Shown: one piece after another, positions 3,231-15,157 of the stretch
How positions within the stretch are numbered: the first letter of the stretch is position 1
How the letters are laid out: each line of letters opens with the position of its first letter
Assembly (NCBI RefSeq): GCF_006159205.1
Contig: NZ_CP040812.1
Coordinates: forward strand, 2,666,001-2,730,000
DNA from: Antarcticibacterium flavum
Lineage (GTDB): Bacteria; Bacteroidota; Bacteroidia; Flavobacteriales; Flavobacteriaceae
DNA length: 64,000 nucleotides
Reading direction: 5' to 3'
Notes under the pieces: generated by a model
The model's database searches: none
What the model saw: only the letters and a program-made list of their open reading frames with translations
What the model was told of the DNA's origin: nothing
Program-made: the position numbers and the translations under genes

Positions 3231-3514
3231 TATTTATAGTTGTAAATTTTAAAAATTTGAAAGAGTACTGGAAGATCCACTTATTACGCTTAGTTTAAAT
3301 CTATAAAAATCATTTGGTTAGACCAAATAAGAGTTTATTAATCAAAGTTGAGTTTATATTTTTTAAGGTTCTCGACTAGAATGAAAAAAAATCCGGTAGG
3401 AATTATAGCAGCGATTTTTATTTGTAGCCAGTGAGAGAAAACATCTTTTGTATTTCTTAACATTTCAGTACTTTTACCCATACCCTACCCTTAATTATAA
3501 TATACCCTAAATAA

Positions 3515-4972
3515 ATGTTTGAACAAACCTTCAAGAACATAGATGATATCCTGTACAAAGATGCAGGAGCCGATAGTGAATTAGATTACATAGGCCAAAC
3601 CTCCTGGGTGCTCTTCCTTAGATATTTAGATGAACTGGATAATGAAAAAGCCGATGAAGCTGCTTTAGAGGGGAAAGACTATGAATTTATCTTAGATGAA
3701 AAATACCGATGGTCTAATTGGGCAATGCCTAAGGATGTTAATGGTGAGTTAGATCATCATATCGCTATGACAGGTCCAGATCTTATAGCCTTCGTAAATA
3801 ATGAGCTATTTCCTTATCTTGCTGGGTTTAAATTAAAGGCTAAAGACAATCCGAAAACCATTGAATATAAAATCGGGGAGATCTTCAGCGAGATCGGCAA
3901 TAAAGTACAAAGCGGGTATAACTTACGGGAGATACTTTCTTTAGCTGATACTTTGCCATTTAAGTCTACTAAAGATAAGCACGAGCTAAGCCACCTGTAT
4001 GAAACTAAGATTAAGAATATGGGGAATGCAGGAAGAAATGGTGGACAGTATTATACCCCACGTCCTCTAATCAGGTCAATGGTGCAGGTCACTAATCCAA
4101 AGATCGGGGAAACTGTTTATGATGCAGCAGTGGGCTCAGCAGGCTTCTTGTGTGAGGCTTATGAGTATATGTATGAGAAGATGGATAAAACCACTTTTAA
4201 CCTCAAAACCTTGCAGGAAACTACCTTTTACGGAAAGGAGAAGAAGAATCTTGCCTATGTTATTGGTGTTATGAATATGATTTTACACGGCATCGAAGCT
4301 CCTAATATTATTCATATCAATACGCTAACGCAATCTATAAGAGATATACAGGAAGAGGACAGGTACGATGTAATCCTTGCTAATCCACCATTTGGGGGAA
4401 AAGAACGTAAAGAAGTACAACAAAACTTTGACATTAAAACAGGAGAGACGGCATTTCTGTTTTTACAACATTTTATAAAGAGCCTCAAAACGGGTGGAAG
4501 AGCAGCAATTGTTATAAAAAACACTTTTTTAAGCAACACCGATAATGCGTCTGTAAGCTTAAGAAAAAACCTTTTGGAAACCTGTAATCTGCATACGGTA
4601 TTAGATATGCCTGGGGGAACTTTTTTAGGGGCAGGAGTTAAAACCGTTGTCTTATTCTTTAGAAAAGGCGAACCCACAAAAAGTATTTGGTATTACCAGC
4701 TTGATCCAGGCAGGAATATGGGTAAAACCAATCCTTTAAATGATAAGGACTTAAAGGAATTTGTTAACCTGCAACCTACCCAACCTGAAACCGAAAAATC
4801 CTGGAATCTGAAACTGGCAGATATAGATGAAACCAGCTATGATCTTTCAGTTAAAAACACAAATACTCCTGAAGAAGCACCTTTACGGGTTCCAGAAGAA
4901 ATTTTACAGGAAATGAAAAGTTTGGATGCGGAAACCAATCAATTGCTAACTGAAATTGAGGAGTTAATATGA
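3515..4972 (+). CDS. hsdM: Type I restriction-modification DNA methyltransferase subunit M
   Basis: This 485-residue product has the HsdM layout: an N-terminal helical bundle (1-140), then an N6-adenine methyltransferase domain with the SAM-binding motif I as DAAVGSAGF (about residue 203) and catalytic motif IV as NPPFGG (about 290). With HsdS it methylates adenine in each half of the recognition site; with HsdR added it forms the restriction enzyme. The stop overlaps the hsdS start (ATGA), indicating translational coupling. Both key motifs are intact, so the methylase is predicted active. Confidence 0.95.
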   Translation: MFEQTFKNIDDILYKDAGADSELDYIGQTSWVLFLRYLDELDNEKADEAALEGKDYEFILDEKYRWSNWAMPKDVNGELDHHIAMTGPDLIAFVNNELFPYLAGFKLKAKDNPKTIEYKIGEIFSEIGNKVQSGYNLREILSLADTLPFKSTKDKHELSHLYETKIKNMGNAGRNGGQYYTPRPLIRSMVQVTNPKIGETVYDAAVGSAGFLCEAYEYMYEKMDKTTFNLKTLQETTFYGKEKKNLAYVIGVMNMILHGIEAPNIIHINTLTQSIRDIQEEDRYDVILANPPFGGKERKEVQQNFDIKTGETAFLFLQHFIKSLKTGGRAAIVIKNTFLSNTDNASVSLRKNLLETCNLHTVLDMPGGTFLGAGVKTVVLFFRKGEPTKSIWYYQLDPGRNMGKTNPLNDKDLKEFVNLQPTQPETEKSWNLKLADIDETSYDLSVKNTNTPEEAPLRVPEEILQEMKSLDAETNQLLTEIEELI

Positions 4973-6144
4973 AAGAAGGTTGGGAAATAACTACCCTGGG
5001 AAATATTGGGAAGGTTTCTATGTGTAAAAGAATTTTCAAAAAAGAAACCTCCGCAACTGGGGAAATTCCATTTTATAAGATAGGAACATTCGGTAAACAG
5101 GCTAATTCTTATATAAGTCAAGCCCTCTATAAAGAATATAGAGAAAAATATCCTTTTCCAAAATTAGGGGATATTTTACTATCAGCGTCTGGTACTATAG
5201 GAAGAGGTGTTGTGTACGATGGGGAACCTGCATATTTCCAAGACTCCAATATTGTATGGATAGATAATGATCAAAAAAAAGTATTAAATGAATATCTGTA
5301 TAAATTTTATGGTTATTGTAATTGGAATCCTTCAAAAGGAGCTACAATCTCCAGACTTTATAATGATGATCTAAAGAGAATCCAAATTCCAGTTCCACCA
5401 CTCGAGGAGCAAAAACAAATCGTTCAAATCTTAGACCAGGCTTTTAAAAAATTAGATCGAGCCATTGCCAATATTGAGCAGAATATTAAAAATGCCGAGG
5501 AACTGTTTCAAGCTGAGCTTAATGAGGTTTTTAGTCACAAAGGGGAAGGTTGGGATGAAAAAACTTTGGGGGAGTTAGGAAAAGTTTCAATGTGTAAAAG
5601 GATATTAAAAAAGCAAACTACTACTGAAGGTGGAGTTCCATTTTATAAAATTGGAACTTTTGGCAAAGAGCCCAATGCATTTATCCCTGAAGAAATTTAT
5701 AATGAATTTCGCAGTAAATATTCTTTCCCTAAGAAAGGAGATATTCTTATTTCCGCTTCGGGGACAATAGGTAGACGAGTCGTTTATGATGGAGAACCTG
5801 CATATTTTCAGGATTCAAATATTGTTTGGATTGATAATGATGAAAGTGAGGTATTAAATGAATTTTTATATGAGTTTTATGGTGTATGTAATTGGAATCC
5901 TTCGAAAGGTGCTACAATTGCTAGGTTGTATAATGATGATTTAAGAAGAATAAAAATATCCTATCCTCCAATAGAAAAGCAAAAAGCTATTGTTCCAGCA
6001 ATTAGAGAATTGAAGAAAAAAACGAAAAACATAGCGGACCAATACAGGATGAAACAGAAAAATCTTGAAGAATTGAAAAAGTCCTTATTGGAAAAAGGTT
6101 TTAAAGGGGAGTTGATTAAAGAGGAGGTGACGTATGAAGATTAA
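4969..6144 (+). CDS. hsdS: Type I restriction-modification specificity subunit S with duplicated recognition domains
   Basis: The 391-residue protein has the two-domain HsdS layout: target recognition domain 1 (about 3-150), central helix (LEEQKQIVQILDQAFKKLD), recognition domain 2 (about 192-340), C-terminal helix. The two recognition domains are unusually alike: by eye about 70% identical over some 150 residues, including identical blocks VSMCKRI, FYKIGTFGK, DGEPAYFQDSNIVWIDND and CNWNPSKGATI. Type I S subunits normally carry unrelated domains that read different half-sites. Identical half-site reading would give an interrupted palindrome. Codons differ between the repeats, so this is not a very recent duplication. 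Confidence 0.95.
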   Translation: MKEGWEITTLGNIGKVSMCKRIFKKETSATGEIPFYKIGTFGKQANSYISQALYKEYREKYPFPKLGDILLSASGTIGRGVVYDGEPAYFQDSNIVWIDNDQKKVLNEYLYKFYGYCNWNPSKGATISRLYNDDLKRIQIPVPPLEEQKQIVQILDQAFKKLDRAIANIEQNIKNAEELFQAELNEVFSHKGEGWDEKTLGELGKVSMCKRILKKQTTTEGGVPFYKIGTFGKEPNAFIPEEIYNEFRSKYSFPKKGDILISASGTIGRRVVYDGEPAYFQDSNIVWIDNDESEVLNEFLYEFYGVCNWNPSKGATIARLYNDDLRRIKISYPPIEKQKAIVPAIRELKKKTKNIADQYRMKQKNLEELKKSLLEKGFKGELIKEEVTYED

Positions 6145-7588
6145 GCATCAGGAAATAGTAGTGCCAAACGATGGCACAGATCCTTTTATAAATTGCAAAT
6201 TAGACCGTAGAGATTATGCAAATATTTTAACAGATATTGTTTCCACCTACGCTGATGGGTTTGTTATGGCTCTTAATAATGAATGGGGTGCTGGAAAAAC
6301 CACTTTTGTAAAAATGTGGAGACAAAGCCTTAAAAATGAAGGTTACAAAACTCTTTATTATAATGCCTGGGAAAATGATTTTGAAAAGGATGTTTTAGTA
6401 GCGTTAATTTCAGAATTGGAGGAATTAAAAGATGCTGATAAATTAGCTAATCCCGAGGCTGTTGAGAATGCTTATAAAAGTGTCGTAAAAAAGGCAGCTT
6501 TACTTACCAAAAAAGTTGGGCCAGGAATTATTAGAGCAGCATTTAAGAAATATGCAGATACCGACAGTGAGGATTTATTAAAAATAATAGAAGGAACGTC
6601 AGAAGTAGCTTTAGAAACTCTAGAGGCAGAAATCACCTCATATACTAAAAGAAAGGAGGGATTAAAAGAATTTAGGGGAAGCCTAGAACTACTAGTTAAG
6701 AATGTCACTTCAAAAAAACCTGTAGTTTTTTTTATTGATGAATTGGATCGCTGCAGACCAACCTATTCTGTTGAGGTTTTAGAAACAGTAAAACACTTAT
6801 TCAGTGTTCCAGGAATTGTATTTGTGCTTTCTATTGATAAGGAGCAATTGGGTCACGCAGTAAAAGGAGTTTATGGCAGTGAAGGTTTGAATTCCGATGA
6901 ATATCTACGGCGTTTTATAGATGTTGAATATAACTTACCAAAGCCAGATTCCAGGCAAGTGAGTGAATATTTATATCAGTATTTTGGCTTCGCACAATTT
7001 ATAGAGGAAACCAATCGAATTGGTTCAAGTTCCTTTCGGGATGATAAAATAAACTTCATCAATTTTGCAGCTCTTCTATTTCATAGTGAAAAAATTAATT
7101 TCCGTCAAGCAGAGAAAATATTTGCAATTGCTAGAGTGGCTTTGAAAACCTTCAAGCAAAACAATTTTATATTCCCTGACTTACTAATCTTTTTAATCTT
7201 CCTAAAAGTATTAAATCCAAAAGTCTATCTTGGAATTTTAAATAAAACATATACCGTTCAAGAGCTGATAGATGAAATAGATCGTTTTCTAATTGGAATG
7301 GCATCATCTGATGATGGTAAATATTTTGGTTTTGCCATAGTTGTGCAACTAGCTCATTATTACCATAATTTTAAAGTAGACGGGATATATTCTACTCAGC
7401 AGATTTCATTTAATAGGGAAGATAAAGGAATTCAGGATAAAATTTTCATTACTTCTAAATTGGAATCATCGGACGCTAATAAAGATCTAAAGAGAATAAA
7501 TGCAAATGGCTGGGCTCACAATCCTAATAGAGTGAAGATTGATTATTTGATGAATAAAATTGATCTACTTGATCCAGTAATTTTTTAA
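6134..7588 (+). CDS. KAP family P-loop NTPase inside the type I operon
   Basis: The 484-residue product has Walker A GAGKTT near residue 53, preceded by NNEWG, and Walker B with FFIDELDRC near 200, followed by the arginine and helix pattern of KAP ATPases (VEVLETVKHLFSVPGIVFVLSID). Many KAP proteins carry membrane helices between these motifs; none is evident here, so it is probably soluble. The start overlaps hsdS by 11 bp and follows a GGAGG site, and hsdR begins 3 bp after its stop, so it is embedded in the operon. Members of the wider STAND/KAP group act in phage defence. Its job here is unknown: accessory factor or separate effector. Confidence 0.85.
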   Translation: MKIKHQEIVVPNDGTDPFINCKLDRRDYANILTDIVSTYADGFVMALNNEWGAGKTTFVKMWRQSLKNEGYKTLYYNAWENDFEKDVLVALISELEELKDADKLANPEAVENAYKSVVKKAALLTKKVGPGIIRAAFKKYADTDSEDLLKIIEGTSEVALETLEAEITSYTKRKEGLKEFRGSLELLVKNVTSKKPVVFFIDELDRCRPTYSVEVLETVKHLFSVPGIVFVLSIDKEQLGHAVKGVYGSEGLNSDEYLRRFIDVEYNLPKPDSRQVSEYLYQYFGFAQFIEETNRIGSSSFRDDKINFINFAALLFHSEKINFRQAEKIFAIARVALKTFKQNNFIFPDLLIFLIFLKVLNPKVYLGILNKTYTVQELIDEIDRFLIGMASSDDGKYFGFAIVVQLAHYYHNFKVDGIYSTQQISFNREDKGIQDKIFITSKLESSDANKDLKRINANGWAHNPNRVKIDYLMNKIDLLDPVIF

Positions 7589-7591
7589 ATT

Positions 7592-9958
7592 ATGAACGAA
7601 GCCCAAACTGAACACGATTATATAGATCCCGCATTAAAAGACGCAGGTTGGGGAGTTGTAGAAGGAAGTTTTATTAAAAAACAATTTCCTATAACCCAGG
7701 GAAGATTGTTGGGCAACGGGAGAAGGCAAATGCCTTTAAAAGCAGATTATGTACTGCAATATAAAAACAGGAATTTAGCTGTTATAGAAGCCAAGGCGGC
7801 TGATAAATATTATACATCTGGTCTTGCACAAGCAAAAGAATATGCTGAGCGATTACAAGTTAGATTCACCTATGCTACCAATGGTTTAAAAATTTATAAA
7901 GTAGATTTAGAGGAGGGTATAGAAAATGACGTACCTAAATATCCTACTCCTCAGGAACTTTATGATTTAACTTTTTCCCAGACAATAGAATGGAGAGAGC
8001 GACTTTTTGAAATACCTTTTGAAGATAGAAGTGGAACTTGGCAACCAAGATATTATCAAAATAACGCAATTACAAAAGCTTTAGAGGCTATAGCGGTTAA
8101 AAGAAAGCGAATTCTACTAACTCTTGCTACTGGTACAGGAAAAACAGCCATAAGTTTTCAAATAGCCTGGAAGTTGTTTCACGCTAAATGGAATCTTTCG
8201 GCAATAGATAGTCGAAATTACCATTCCAGAAGTCCACGCATTTTATTTCTAGCAGATAGAAATATTTTGGCAGATCAGGCTTTTAATTCTTTTAGCGCTT
8301 TTGAAGAAGATGCACTGGTACGAATTAAGCCTTCAGAAATAAAGAAAAAAGGTAGTGTCCCTAAAAACGGGAGCATCTTTTTCACCATTTTTCAAACTTT
8401 TATGAGTGGCCCTGGCGACACACCATATTTTGGAGAGTATCCTAAGGATTACTTTGATTTTATAATTATTGATGAGTGTCACAGGGGAGGAGCTAATGAC
8501 GAAAGTTCCTGGAGGGCAATTATGGATTACTTTAAGCCAGCAGTACAATTAGGTTTAACCGCTACTCCTAAAAGAGATGTAAACGGAGATACTTATGACT
8601 ATTTTGGGGAACCCGTATATGAATATAGTCTAAAGGAGGGGATTAACGATGGATTTCTTACACCCTTTAAAGTAAAAGAGTTCAGCACAACGATAGATGA
8701 ATATACTTATGATCCAGAGGATGATGTAGAAGGAGAAATCCAACCTGATAGAACCTATAAGGAGCCTGACTTTAACCGTTCCATTGCAATGGAAGCCAGG
8801 GAAAATTATAGGGTAAAACTATTTATGGATCTGGTGAATGAAAATCAGAAAACTTTAATATTCTGTGCTACACAGGATCACGCAGCCCAGATAAGGGATA
8901 TGATCAACCAGTACAGCAGTAGTAAAAATCCTTTATACTGTTGTAGAGTTACAGCCGATGATGGCGGAATTGGAGAACAGTATCTAAGGGATTTCCAAGA
9001 TAATGAAAAATTGATTCCTACTATGCTTACAACTAGTCAGAAATTAAGCACTGGTGTAGACGCTCCTGAAATAAGAAATATCGTCCTGCTGAGATCGATT
9101 AATTCTATGGTAGAATTTAAACAAATTGTAGGTCGAGGAACCAGACTTTTTAGGGGCAAGGACTATTTTACCATTTATGATTTTGTAAAAGCACATAAAC
9201 ATTTCAAAGACCCAGAATGGGATGGTCCCCCATTGCCACCTGAAGTGATAGAGCCAAGACCTAAAAAGCCTTGTTTTGAATGTGGTGAATTTACCTGTGT
9301 TTGCGAAAAAGTTCCACCAGATCCTTGTCATATATGTGGATATGCACCGTGTAGGTGTAATAAGGTGAATAATGTTGTTAAGGTTAAATTATCAGATAGG
9401 AAAGTACGGGAATTGGATTCAATGGTGAAAACCAGTTTTTGGGATCCTGATGGGAAGCCAATTTCTGCTGAGACATTTATAAATAGGCTTTTTGGCGATA
9501 TTTCAGGATTATTTAAATCAGAAGAAGAGTTAAGAAAAATTTGGAGCACTCCTTCTACAAGAAAAAAGCTCTTAGAGGAGATGGAAGACAAAGGATATTC
9601 TGAAGCGCAACTGGAAGATTTGAGAAAAGTAGTTCACGGGGAAGACAGCGACCTTTTTGATGTGCTGTCCTATATAGCCTACCATAAAGATTTGGTTCCT
9701 AGAATAAAAAGGGCTGAGAATGCCAAGGTTCATTTAACCTCATATTCCTCGGAACAGCAGGATTTCTTGAATTTTGTTCTAAGGCAGTATGTTGAAGCAG
9801 GAGTTGGTGAATTGGATGAAAGCAAAATTAAGGATCTGCTTGTTCTGAAATACAAAGCAATTGCAGATGCGAAAATTAAATTAGGCGATATACCTTCCAT
9901 ACGACAAACTTTTATAGCATTTCAGCAGCATCTATATAGACAATCAAACACTGCGTAA
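7592..9958 (+). CDS. hsdR: Type I restriction subunit R (EcoEI-like helicase-nuclease)
   Basis: The 788-residue protein has an N-terminal PD-(D/E)xK nuclease core (ADYVLQ then VIEAKA, about 51-69), a superfamily 2 helicase with Walker A ATGTGKT (about 180), DECH box (about 293), LGLTATP, motif VI QIVGRGTR (about 512), and an EcoEI-type C-terminal domain from about 600. It translocates DNA and cuts unmodified DNA in complex with HsdM and HsdS. Between helicase and C-terminal domain lie two tandem C-x2-C-x4-C-x-C blocks (CFECGEFTCVC and CHICGYAPCRC, about 560-590), a possible zinc-binding linker. Catalytic motifs are intact. Confidence 0.93.
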   Translation: MNEAQTEHDYIDPALKDAGWGVVEGSFIKKQFPITQGRLLGNGRRQMPLKADYVLQYKNRNLAVIEAKAADKYYTSGLAQAKEYAERLQVRFTYATNGLKIYKVDLEEGIENDVPKYPTPQELYDLTFSQTIEWRERLFEIPFEDRSGTWQPRYYQNNAITKALEAIAVKRKRILLTLATGTGKTAISFQIAWKLFHAKWNLSAIDSRNYHSRSPRILFLADRNILADQAFNSFSAFEEDALVRIKPSEIKKKGSVPKNGSIFFTIFQTFMSGPGDTPYFGEYPKDYFDFIIIDECHRGGANDESSWRAIMDYFKPAVQLGLTATPKRDVNGDTYDYFGEPVYEYSLKEGINDGFLTPFKVKEFSTTIDEYTYDPEDDVEGEIQPDRTYKEPDFNRSIAMEARENYRVKLFMDLVNENQKTLIFCATQDHAAQIRDMINQYSSSKNPLYCCRVTADDGGIGEQYLRDFQDNEKLIPTMLTTSQKLSTGVDAPEIRNIVLLRSINSMVEFKQIVGRGTRLFRGKDYFTIYDFVKAHKHFKDPEWDGPPLPPEVIEPRPKKPCFECGEFTCVCEKVPPDPCHICGYAPCRCNKVNNVVKVKLSDRKVRELDSMVKTSFWDPDGKPISAETFINRLFGDISGLFKSEEELRKIWSTPSTRKKLLEEMEDKGYSEAQLEDLRKVVHGEDSDLFDVLSYIAYHKDLVPRIKRAENAKVHLTSYSSEQQDFLNFVLRQYVEAGVGELDESKIKDLLVLKYKAIADAKIKLGDIPSIRQTFIAFQQHLYRQSNTA

Positions 9959-10015
9959 GTCAAATGAAAAAAGGAAAAAAATTTAGCTCAAAGGTGATTA
10001 ATAAAATCCAATAGA

Positions 10016-10900
10016 ATGAAGCAAGAAAACAAAACCTGTTTTATAGTTACGCCCATTGGTGAAGTTTCCAGTGCAGAAAGGAGAAATACTGATGGTTTAA
10101 TCTCCTCTGTTTTAAAGCCGGTACTGCAGGAAGATTTTAATTTTAAGGATGTAGAAGCTGCCCACGAAATCAATTCTTCGGGATCAATAAATAACCAGAT
10201 AATGAAAAGAATTTTATATGATGATTTGGTTATTGCCAATCTAACAGGCGTAAATCCTAATGTAATGTATGAATTAGCAGTGAGGCATGCTACAATGAAG
10301 CCTATAATTCATATATGTGAGAATGGTACGAAATTGCCCTTCGATATAATTGATCAAAGAACAATATTTTATTTTAACGATATGTTAGGAGTGAAAGAGT
10401 TGAGGTCTAATTTGACTAAAATGATAAAAGCTGCACTTTCCAACCACGAATTTTTAGATAATCCTATTTACAATGCTAGTAGAAGCAAAATCTTTGAAGA
10501 AAACATTTTTAAAGATTCTGAAAAGAATTTTGAACAATTCCTACTACAAAAGTTAGAGAGATTAGAATCAAAATTAGGAAATTTCGCATCTCCAAAAACA
10601 TTTAATGCTGAATTCGCATATTCTAAGGAAATCTTTTTATATATAAATTTTTTCGGAAAAACAAGAATGAATTTTTTATCTAATGAATTGTCTTCATCCC
10701 TAAAAGCTTATGGATTAACTTTAACTAGTATGCATTTAAGAATGGAGGAGGAAAAAGTAGACAGTATGGTTTCTCTTTCCGTGGAAAGTAACATCCCTTT
10801 TTCTTTTGGGGATGTAAGGAGAATATTAAGTGGTTTGAAATCAGAAAATTTCAAAATTGTGGAAATTTCAGAGATACCACCTCCTCCTTCTAAGAAATAA
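10016..10900 (+). CDS. Protein with NDT/TIR-like nucleotide-processing domain
   Basis: The first 150 residues look like the Rossmann-type nucleoside 2-deoxyribosyltransferase/TIR-like domain found in bacterial immunity genes: opening CFIVTPIGE, then RRNTDGLI, AHEINSSGSI, DDLVIANLTG and NPNVMYELAVRHA, where the YEL glutamate is the likely catalytic residue. The C-terminal half (about 160-290) is helical then alpha/beta and unrecognised; it ends with a proline run. It lies 57 bp after hsdR on the same strand. Proteins of this type cleave NAD or nucleotides, or act as effectors; that role is inferred. No membrane segment is seen. Confidence 0.65.
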   Translation: MKQENKTCFIVTPIGEVSSAERRNTDGLISSVLKPVLQEDFNFKDVEAAHEINSSGSINNQIMKRILYDDLVIANLTGVNPNVMYELAVRHATMKPIIHICENGTKLPFDIIDQRTIFYFNDMLGVKELRSNLTKMIKAALSNHEFLDNPIYNASRSKIFEENIFKDSEKNFEQFLLQKLERLESKLGNFASPKTFNAEFAYSKEIFLYINFFGKTRMNFLSNELSSSLKAYGLTLTSMHLRMEEEKVDSMVSLSVESNIPFSFGDVRRILSGLKSENFKIVEISEIPPPPSKK

Positions 10901-10999: not shown

Positions 11000-11027
11000 A
11001 AAAAACCTCCTTAAAAGGAGGCTGTTT
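11000..11027 (-). terminator. Bidirectional rho-independent terminator
   Basis: The stem CCTCCTT / AAGGAGG with a two-base loop has T-tracts on both strands. It ends the H1-like gene at 11029 on the minus strand and can stop read-through from the defence operon on the plus strand. A similar hairpin follows the second H1-like gene. Confidence 0.75.
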
Positions 11028-13906: not shown

Positions 13907-15157
13907 ATGGACAAAATTACAAGAAATTCTGGAATGCCGGTTCTCGGACAGCTGTTATCTTTTATTCCCCGGAACAATTTTAATCGTATTGTTGGTCAGC
14001 TAGGTGCGGATCGCTATACAAAACGATTTACCTCCTGGGATCATCTGGTCTGTATGTTGTTTGCTGTTATTGAAAATGTTGGTGGATTACGTGAGTTATG
14101 CTCAGGTTTAGCAGCACATAATCAAAGTTTAAAACATTTAGGAATGAGTTCTATGCCATGCAGAAGCACCGTGAGTGATGCTAATATGCGCCGGTGTTCT
14201 GACTTGTTTGAAAAAACCTTTATAAGCATATATAAGCAGCACTATCGTTTTTTCTCGGACAGCAGTATACCTAAAAATGAAAAATGGCTCTCTAGGCTAT
14301 TTTTGGTTGATTCTACAACTGTTACCCTTTTCAAGAATATAATGAAGGCCTGTGGTAATGCTATGGCCAACGGGAGGCGTAAGGGAGGAGTTAAAATACA
14401 TACTGGAATGTGGCTAAAAGAACAGGTTCCTTCCTTAATAATGATTACTAAGGCAGCGGAAAATGATAAAAATTTTATGCCCCGATTTAAAAAACTTCCT
14501 GCACAGATCATTGTAGTTTTTGATAAGGCATACTTAAATTTTGGTTTATTTATTCATTGGAGTAAAAACGATGTCAGTTTTGTAAGCCGACTGCACAAAA
14601 GATGCAAAGTAACTTGGGGGAATTATAACCTCTTAACTAAGGAGGATGAGAAATATGGCATATTGGAAGACTGTAGAGCAGAATTAGGGCATAGCCAGCA
14701 AAAACAAAAAGTAAAATGCCGCATTATAAAGTTTTATGATCACAAAGATCAACGGGAAATTGAATTTATTACCAATGATATGCAGCTGCCTGCTTGCACA
14801 ATTGCAGAAATATACAAGCAGCGATGGCAAATTGAGCTTTTATTTAAAAGGCTCAAGCAAAACCTTAAGATCACCAGCTTTATTGGCGATAATGAGAATG
14901 CAATACGAATTCAAATCTGGTGTGCACTTATAGCGGATTTACTCGTCCAAATAGCTCGAAAAGGATCGCGACGTTGTAGATTATCATATTCGGTTATCTG
15001 TGGGCTATTCAGGCTTCATTTAATGAATTATGTGAGAGTTACAGACTTACTTTTAAAATCAGCAGATCCTAACATTTATCCAAAAAATATACAGCTTGCA
15101 CCCAATCTTTTTGATCTAGGGCCCCATAAGCCGGAAATCAAAATCGAAGTGATGTAG
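13907..15157 (+). CDS. IS4-family transposase (DUF4372 + DDE domain)
   Basis: The 416-residue protein starts with the DUF4372-type N-terminal domain (residues 10-85, SFIPRNNFNRIVGQ) and continues with a DDE transposase domain: first Asp in LVDSTTV (about 135), second in VFDKAYL (about 205), and Glu in the YKQRWQIELLFKRLKQ signature (about 308), which fits the Y-x2-R-x3-E-x6-K motif of IS4. All catalytic residues are present and the frame is intact, so the element may be active. Confidence 0.95.
   Translation: MDKITRNSGMPVLGQLLSFIPRNNFNRIVGQLGADRYTKRFTSWDHLVCMLFAVIENVGGLRELCSGLAAHNQSLKHLGMSSMPCRSTVSDANMRRCSDLFEKTFISIYKQHYRFFSDSSIPKNEKWLSRLFLVDSTTVTLFKNIMKACGNAMANGRRKGGVKIHTGMWLKEQVPSLIMITKAAENDKNFMPRFKKLPAQIIVVFDKAYLNFGLFIHWSKNDVSFVSRLHKRCKVTWGNYNLLTKEDEKYGILEDCRAELGHSQQKQKVKCRIIKFYDHKDQREIEFITNDMQLPACTIAEIYKQRWQIELLFKRLKQNLKITSFIGDNENAIRIQIWCALIADLLVQIARKGSRRCRLSYSVICGLFRLHLMNYVRVTDLLLKSADPNIYPKNIQLAPNLFDLGPHKPEIKIEVM

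Follow-up and report, generated by a model that had tools for sequence, protein, structure and literature searches.

Genes additional to those of restriction and modification have been described within type I restriction-modification (RM) operons. RloF of Campylobacter sits between hsdS and hsdR (PMC4619093), and DarTG2 lies between the same two genes in E. coli, at a site termed a potential recombination hotspot (PMC12255303). In V. cholerae, TgvAB is embedded in a type I operon, protects without HsdR activity and covers modified phages (PMC11411939). Single genes proposed through guilt by embedding are collected as phage defence candidates (PDCs; PMC11514479), a set attributed to Payne et al. 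2024 (bioRxiv, as cited) in which validation is pending for most members (PMC12988326). Swarozyc, a DUF4062 TIR-like NADase that senses a phage portal, has likewise been reported (PMC13174449). Here we describe a locus of Antarcticibacterium flavum (positions 3515–10900 of a 64,000-nucleotide (nt) stretch of contig NZ_CP040812.1, positions 2,666,001 to 2,730,000, hereafter the window) in which a gene encoding a KAP P-loop NTPase (KAP) lies between hsdS and hsdR, and a gene encoding an NDT/TIR-like protein (gene N) follows hsdR.

This arrangement resembles that of the rlo genes (R-linked open reading frames, ORFs), which are unrelated genes found at the same type I junction; however, RloF is a GmrS/DUF262 protein, whereas the cargo here is a KAP NTPase. 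DarTG2 is, like KAP, a separate defence unit at the hsdS-hsdR junction, but it is a toxin-antitoxin pair under the control of the RptR repressor, and TgvAB is a two-gene type IV restriction system, whereas a single KAP gene is present here. Between KAP and the candidate PDC-S20 of the PADLOC collection, no difference was found. The explanation that we favour, with a probability of about 0.75 on the sequence comparisons given below, is that the locus comprises an ordinary type I system, a swappable and translationally coupled KAP gene that would be functionally independent, and a separate prophage-type gene downstream.

Genes and junctions of the operon

The features of the locus are as follows.

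3515–4972, + strand: hsdM, type I N6-adenine methyltransferase, 485 amino acids (aa) (N6_Mtase, HsdM_N, MTase_I, NPPF motif)
4969–6144, + strand: hsdS, specificity subunit with two similar halves, 391 aa (Methylase_S, aligned halves)
6134–7588, + strand: KAP P-loop NTPase, cargo of the hsdS-hsdR slot and PADLOC candidate PDC-S20, 484 aa (KAP_NTPase, PDC-S20, phrog_8614)
7592–9958, + strand: hsdR, EcoAI/FtnUII-type restriction/translocation subunit, 788 aa (NF046051, ResIII, EcoEI_R_C)
10016–10900, + strand: gene N, NDT/TIR-like, of the viral family phrog_10872, 294 aa (phrog_10872, AlphaFold model, PDB matches)
11004–11023, no strand assigned: weak terminator-like inverted repeat after gene N, of a kind not above shuffles (6 found, 6.4 expected)

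All five frames are open and lie on the + strand. hsdM and hsdS overlap by 4 nt and hsdS and KAP by 11 nt, 3 nt separate KAP from hsdR, and 57 nt separate hsdR from gene N. The five-gene order and tight spacing described in an earlier note on this DNA are thus borne out, as are the family identities. HsdM matches N6_Mtase (1.2e-62) and HsdM_N in Pfam and MTase_I in PADLOC (531 bits), and carries an NPPF motif at residue 290. HsdR clears the NCBIfam cut-off for the EcoAI/FtnUII type (NF046051, 797 bits against 550), matches ResIII and EcoEI_R_C in Pfam, and carries DECH at residue 294 and EAK at residue 66. HsdS matches Methylase_S in two stretches (Pfam, 6.3e-56); its gene contains a 300-nt direct repeat, 71% identical, and the two halves of the protein align with each other. 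As these halves are very alike, target-recognition parts included, a near-palindromic bipartite recognition site is predicted. hsdM-hsdS-hsdR is a complete type I RM operon of the EcoAI/FtnUII type, the activity of which is predicted.

The KAP gene starts inside the end of hsdS, just after a GGAGG-like site in the 3′ end of hsdS. A GGAG/GAGG-like site was present at the hsdS end in all eight filled junctions that were read, the window included, and in one of four empty junctions (L129; loci of other genomes are designated in this way). With the site in only one of the four empty junctions, we do not claim that the cargo takes over the start signal of hsdR itself. The stop codon of hsdS and the start codon of the following gene overlap within ATGA in seven of the eight filled junctions, the overlap in the window being 11 nt, and KAP starts in a 4-nt overlap with hsdS in six of the nine other loci with the order S-KAP-R. 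At the other end of the cargo, hsdR lies 0–19 nt after KAP in 7/10 slot loci, the window included. The start within the hsdS end after a GGAGG-like site, together with hsdR 3 nt downstream, indicates that KAP is placed for translation with the RM genes; such a placement does not require joint function.

The KAP protein matches Pfam KAP_NTPase (140 bits, 1.3e-40) and the viral family phrog_8614 (8.1e-69), and the PADLOC PDC-S20 profile covers residues 1–480 of 484 at 515 bits. By these profile matches, the KAP gene is a member of a family already listed by PADLOC as a candidate. In 51 aligned rows, the Walker B region (FFIDELDR) is invariant and the P-loop residues are conserved. The predicted fold may be RdrA/ORC-like: the nearest PDB structure is RdrA (root-mean-square deviation 6.0, 12% identity), followed by ORC/Cdc6-like ATPases, and the comparison of the KAP profile with solved structures gave chiefly general P-loop matches. 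Two named identities were rejected: RdrA of RADAR, as no deaminase family, such as the RdrB adenosine deaminase partner would show, occurs among the five operon proteins, and QatA, as the match reaches 63 bits against a curated cut-off of 600.

Cargo of the hsdS-hsdR slot and distribution of KAP

At E 1e-60, an hsdR relative is present in 74 of 395 phylum genomes, the own genome included, and 39 other genomes with an hsdR at least 48% identical to that of the window were used to read the hsdS-hsdR junction. In 30 of these, hsdS is present upstream on the stretch; the nine without hsdS upstream in order were left out. The gap between hsdS and hsdR is at most 22 nt in four loci (L129, L135, L140, L148) and 736–3202 nt in the other 26, among which L136, L142, L145 and L147 have no unassigned ORF of at least 110 aa listed. 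Slot proteins were scanned in Pfam (17 proteins from 12 loci) and in PADLOC (9 proteins). Schlafen/AlbA proteins with SLFN_AlbA and HATPase_c_4 recur (L131, L133, L159, L161), as does DUF5131 with a partner (L128 and L137, the latter matching PDC-M30); the slot of L134 holds HipA_2 and DUF3037 (PDC-M66) and that of L141 an Xre/ParS antitoxin. An M78 peptidase is found in L146, L149 and L158, RmrA-like in L158 and accompanied by DUF4411 in L149 and L158 (metallopeptidase/PIN), and no Pfam family was found for the slot protein of L138. None of the genes listed in the vicinity of hsdR in the 39 loci was marked as KAP or N. Among those compared, the hsdR proteins nearest to that of the window come from loci with KAP in the slot (L045, 72%; L009, 71%), with an empty slot (L129, 71%) and with the DUF5131 pair in the slot (L128, 69%). 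By gene content, the hsdS-hsdR junction is a cargo slot for exchangeable and varied genes. In L129, hsdM reads as two overlapping frames.

A profile scan of genome contigs yielded 63 other KAP loci. Nine of them have KAP in the hsdS-hsdR interval (L006, L007, L008, L009, L011, L012, L045, L050, L052): it is accompanied there by additional ORFs in L008, L011, L012 and L045, the hsdR of L050 is longer (1044 aa), and that of L052 is a weak match (30 bits) cut by the contig end. In L026, hsdS is followed by KAP at the contig end. KAP adjoins type I genes outside the slot in four further loci, before the hsd genes (L005, L056), after hsdR (L018) or antiparallel to them (L051). According to our own M, S and R profiles, 49 of the 63 loci have no type I genes beside KAP. 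Two of these 49 carry another restriction system: in L015 (4765–9386) an AccI-type restriction gene and an Eco57I-type methylase gene are followed after 3 nt by KAP, and in L016 KAP comes 48 nt after a type ISP enzyme. In the remaining 47 the profiles mark nothing directly beside KAP on its strand, and in L021 and L025 there is an R-profile match on the opposite strand, two to five genes away. Because the Pfam scan of KAP neighbours covered 15 selected loci (19 proteins), and because some contigs stop short, at most 47 loci have KAP without restriction genes. Within the phylum, KAP matches at E 0.001 occur in 51 of 395 genomes and exceed 100 bits in 12, the window's own locus among them; no S or R was found within the ~1.5-kb flanks of the other 11 (L069–L079), and an M-profile match lies 85 nt from KAP in L073. 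KAP relatives are also present in five records of a phage collection, one of them full-length at 39% identity, and in eight viral contigs. In L053 (9493–12423), a gene for a SEFIR/TIR-NACHT protein begins 151 nt after the KAP gene.

We built a KAP tree of 73 rows, leaving out proteins outside 380–560 aa (among them the split KAP of L045 and the short one of L051) and taking the slot labels from gene order. Given its well-supported branches, the slot label of the 10 slot rows must have changed at least 6 times, and constraining these ten to one clade lowers the log-likelihood by 746 (approximately unbiased (AU) test, p-AU 1e-12). By this tree, slot-borne KAPs are not one clade. Within Bacteroidota the slot rows fall in three places: L011 with L012; the window with L006, L008 and L009; and L007. 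Between L007 and L011/L012, M is 80% and R 70–71% identical, whereas KAP is just 40–41% identical; the KAP of L007 is 45% identical to that of the window. The KAP gene of L045 is broken into two frames, perhaps through a sequencing error, next to open M, S and R frames. The varied places in the tree, the mismatch in L007, the phage-borne copies and the split KAP of L045 favour an independent, swappable KAP gene.

Gene N

No Pfam family, DUF4062 included, matches gene N at E 0.001, and the PADLOC match to a TIR effector is weak (37.9 bits). Residues 3–199 match phrog_10872 at 3.9e-59. Comparison with solved structures by sequence found nothing usable; the AlphaFold model and its PDB matches predict a Rossmann-like fold of the NDT/DNPH1/TIR glycosidase type, with the glycosidase fold at residues ~1–145, helices at 150–191 and a separate beta-alpha domain at 202–285. 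The YE motif, Tyr85-Glu86, is invariant in 64/64 aligned rows, and Glu86 occupies what we take to be the catalytic position of NDT/DNPH1/TIR glycosidases. Swarozyc and the product of gene N are both single proteins with a TIR/NDT-like domain, a helical stalk and a separate sensor part. Gene N was not assigned to Swarozyc, as DUF4062 is absent.

Relatives of N occur in 60 of 395 genomes of the phylum and in 294 of 346 viral stretches, and the neighbours of N-family genes vary among viral contigs. The N profile matched no ORF of the 63 KAP loci. A pair of N with this type of hsdR was found only here among the KAP and hsdR loci, the 80 viral N loci not having been searched for hsd genes. Matches to the hsdR profile lie near N in 2 of 30 N loci (L107, 21 bits; L122, 53 bits) and were not counted as such pairs, although they may be. 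Most likely, the place of N after hsdR reflects a local arrival and not part of a conserved system.

Competing explanations

The layout is real and not a product of chance: cargo occupies a known kind of slot, next to a viral-type gene. In the explanation that we favour, the type I M-S-R operon would carry one exchangeable cargo gene, that of the KAP NTPase, at the hsdS-hsdR junction, and KAP would act alone as a phage-triggered AAA+/STAND-like NTPase which, by analogy with RdrA or PifA, most likely assembles on a phage cue and halts infection. KAP may cover phages that escape restriction, much as TgvAB does from within its type I operon. Gene N would stand apart as a one-gene unit whose family is frequent in viral contigs. 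Its product probably uses Glu86 to break an N-glycosidic bond, either in NAD+ or in a nucleotide, once its variable C-terminal part senses a phage product.

In the composite system that the earlier note put forward as a possibility, KAP would detect restriction or DNA ends, and the NDT/TIR-like protein would serve as backup effector; a stalled HsdR may be added to the cues. Five genes packed on one strand, the recurrence of KAP at the S-R junction, a KAP fold nearest to RdrA and then to ORC/Cdc6-like ATPases, some of which act on nucleic acid, and the TIR/NDT glycosidase fold of N speak for it. We nevertheless regard it as very improbable, since neither the 63 KAP loci nor the genes listed in the vicinity of hsdR in 39 loci show the N profile, type I genes are missing beside KAP in 49 of 63 loci, the same junction holds other cargo and slot KAPs are not a clade. 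What stands of that proposal is the non-random position of KAP between hsdS and hsdR, which recurs in nine of the 63 loci; a dedicated role in the restriction machine is not supported, the slot being empty or otherwise filled in relatives, and neither is N as a backup effector, its family being widespread in viral contigs with varying neighbours. The order M-S-KAP-R-NDT was found in none of the 63 KAP loci and 39 hsdR loci. The note would count presence beside hsd genes in this strain only as a refutation; among these loci, KAP passes that check and the NDT-like gene fails it. It is unlikely that KAP, without any link to N, is an RM-dependent guard that fires once restriction has been blocked or evaded by a phage: KAP is repeatedly found beside type I genes (with two hsdR lengths), an AccI type II system and a type ISP enzyme, and it starts inside the hsdS end, but the 49 loci, the phage-borne copies and L045, where KAP is split while the hsd genes are open, count against such dependence. 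It is quite improbable that the slot KAP is a guard co-made with HsdS, one that monitors whether HsdR translocates or fails to and responds with arrest to a phage that blocks or escapes restriction, and that in this genome a viral-type TIR/NDT-like glycosidase has been recruited by it as a further effector. That KAP is a passenger kept by operon expression, without a role in defence, is highly improbable: no assay of it was found, and PDC-S20 is a candidate only and is not named in the literature searched, but the invariant Walker B region, the conserved P-loop residues and the repeated association with restriction systems and phages count against this reading.

Several observations weigh against the independence of KAP, which is itself inferred from gene order. 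Tight packing against hsdS would also fit a working partnership, and TgvAB by itself gave weaker protection from several phages than did the complete cluster (PMC11411939). Bacteroidota rows and distant ones (L026, L050, L052) entered the clade test together. Slot KAPs cluster on the tree more than shuffled labels do (7 changes as opposed to 9.5, with 5 of 500 shuffles as low), and the window, L006, L008 and L009 group together with one stand-alone row. KAP may thus have been retained at this position in some lineages, and a long association of KAP with the slot within one lineage is possible. The label 'alone' rests on our own M, S and R profiles and, for L069–L079, on the ~1.5-kb flank, and it was given to L015, L016 and L073 even though a methylase gene adjoins KAP there. 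As to the separateness of N, L122 has an N-like protein (637 aa) with a ResIII/Helicase_C gene fragment 570 nt upstream, at the locus edge. The sigma-70 promoter scan (26 promoter-like sites, 31.1 expected) and the terminator scan are both at chance level, and a Bacteroidota-type promoter pattern has no match before hsdM or before N (7 in the window, 4.1 expected).

The locus illustrates guilt by embedding with a clear worked case. In one type I family of the phylum, a range of alternative genes occupies the hsdS-hsdR junction, and several of these are defence genes, known or candidate. Members of this one KAP family have, moreover, come to lie next to restriction systems of type I, type II and type ISP. 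Natural empty-slot and stand-alone controls make the dependence of embedded genes on their host system testable.

An AT-rich inverted repeat of 34 nt, 76% complementary, has one arm before hsdM (3331–3364) and the other just after hsdR (9975–10008); the arms bracket M-S-KAP-R and leave gene N outside, an arrangement that may be due to chance. A Fic/DOC family gene lies upstream of the operon (22–744), and a Fic gene is also found 15 nt after KAP in L030. Three kb past gene N, a transposase gene (DUF4372 and DDE_Tnp_1) occupies 13907–15157.

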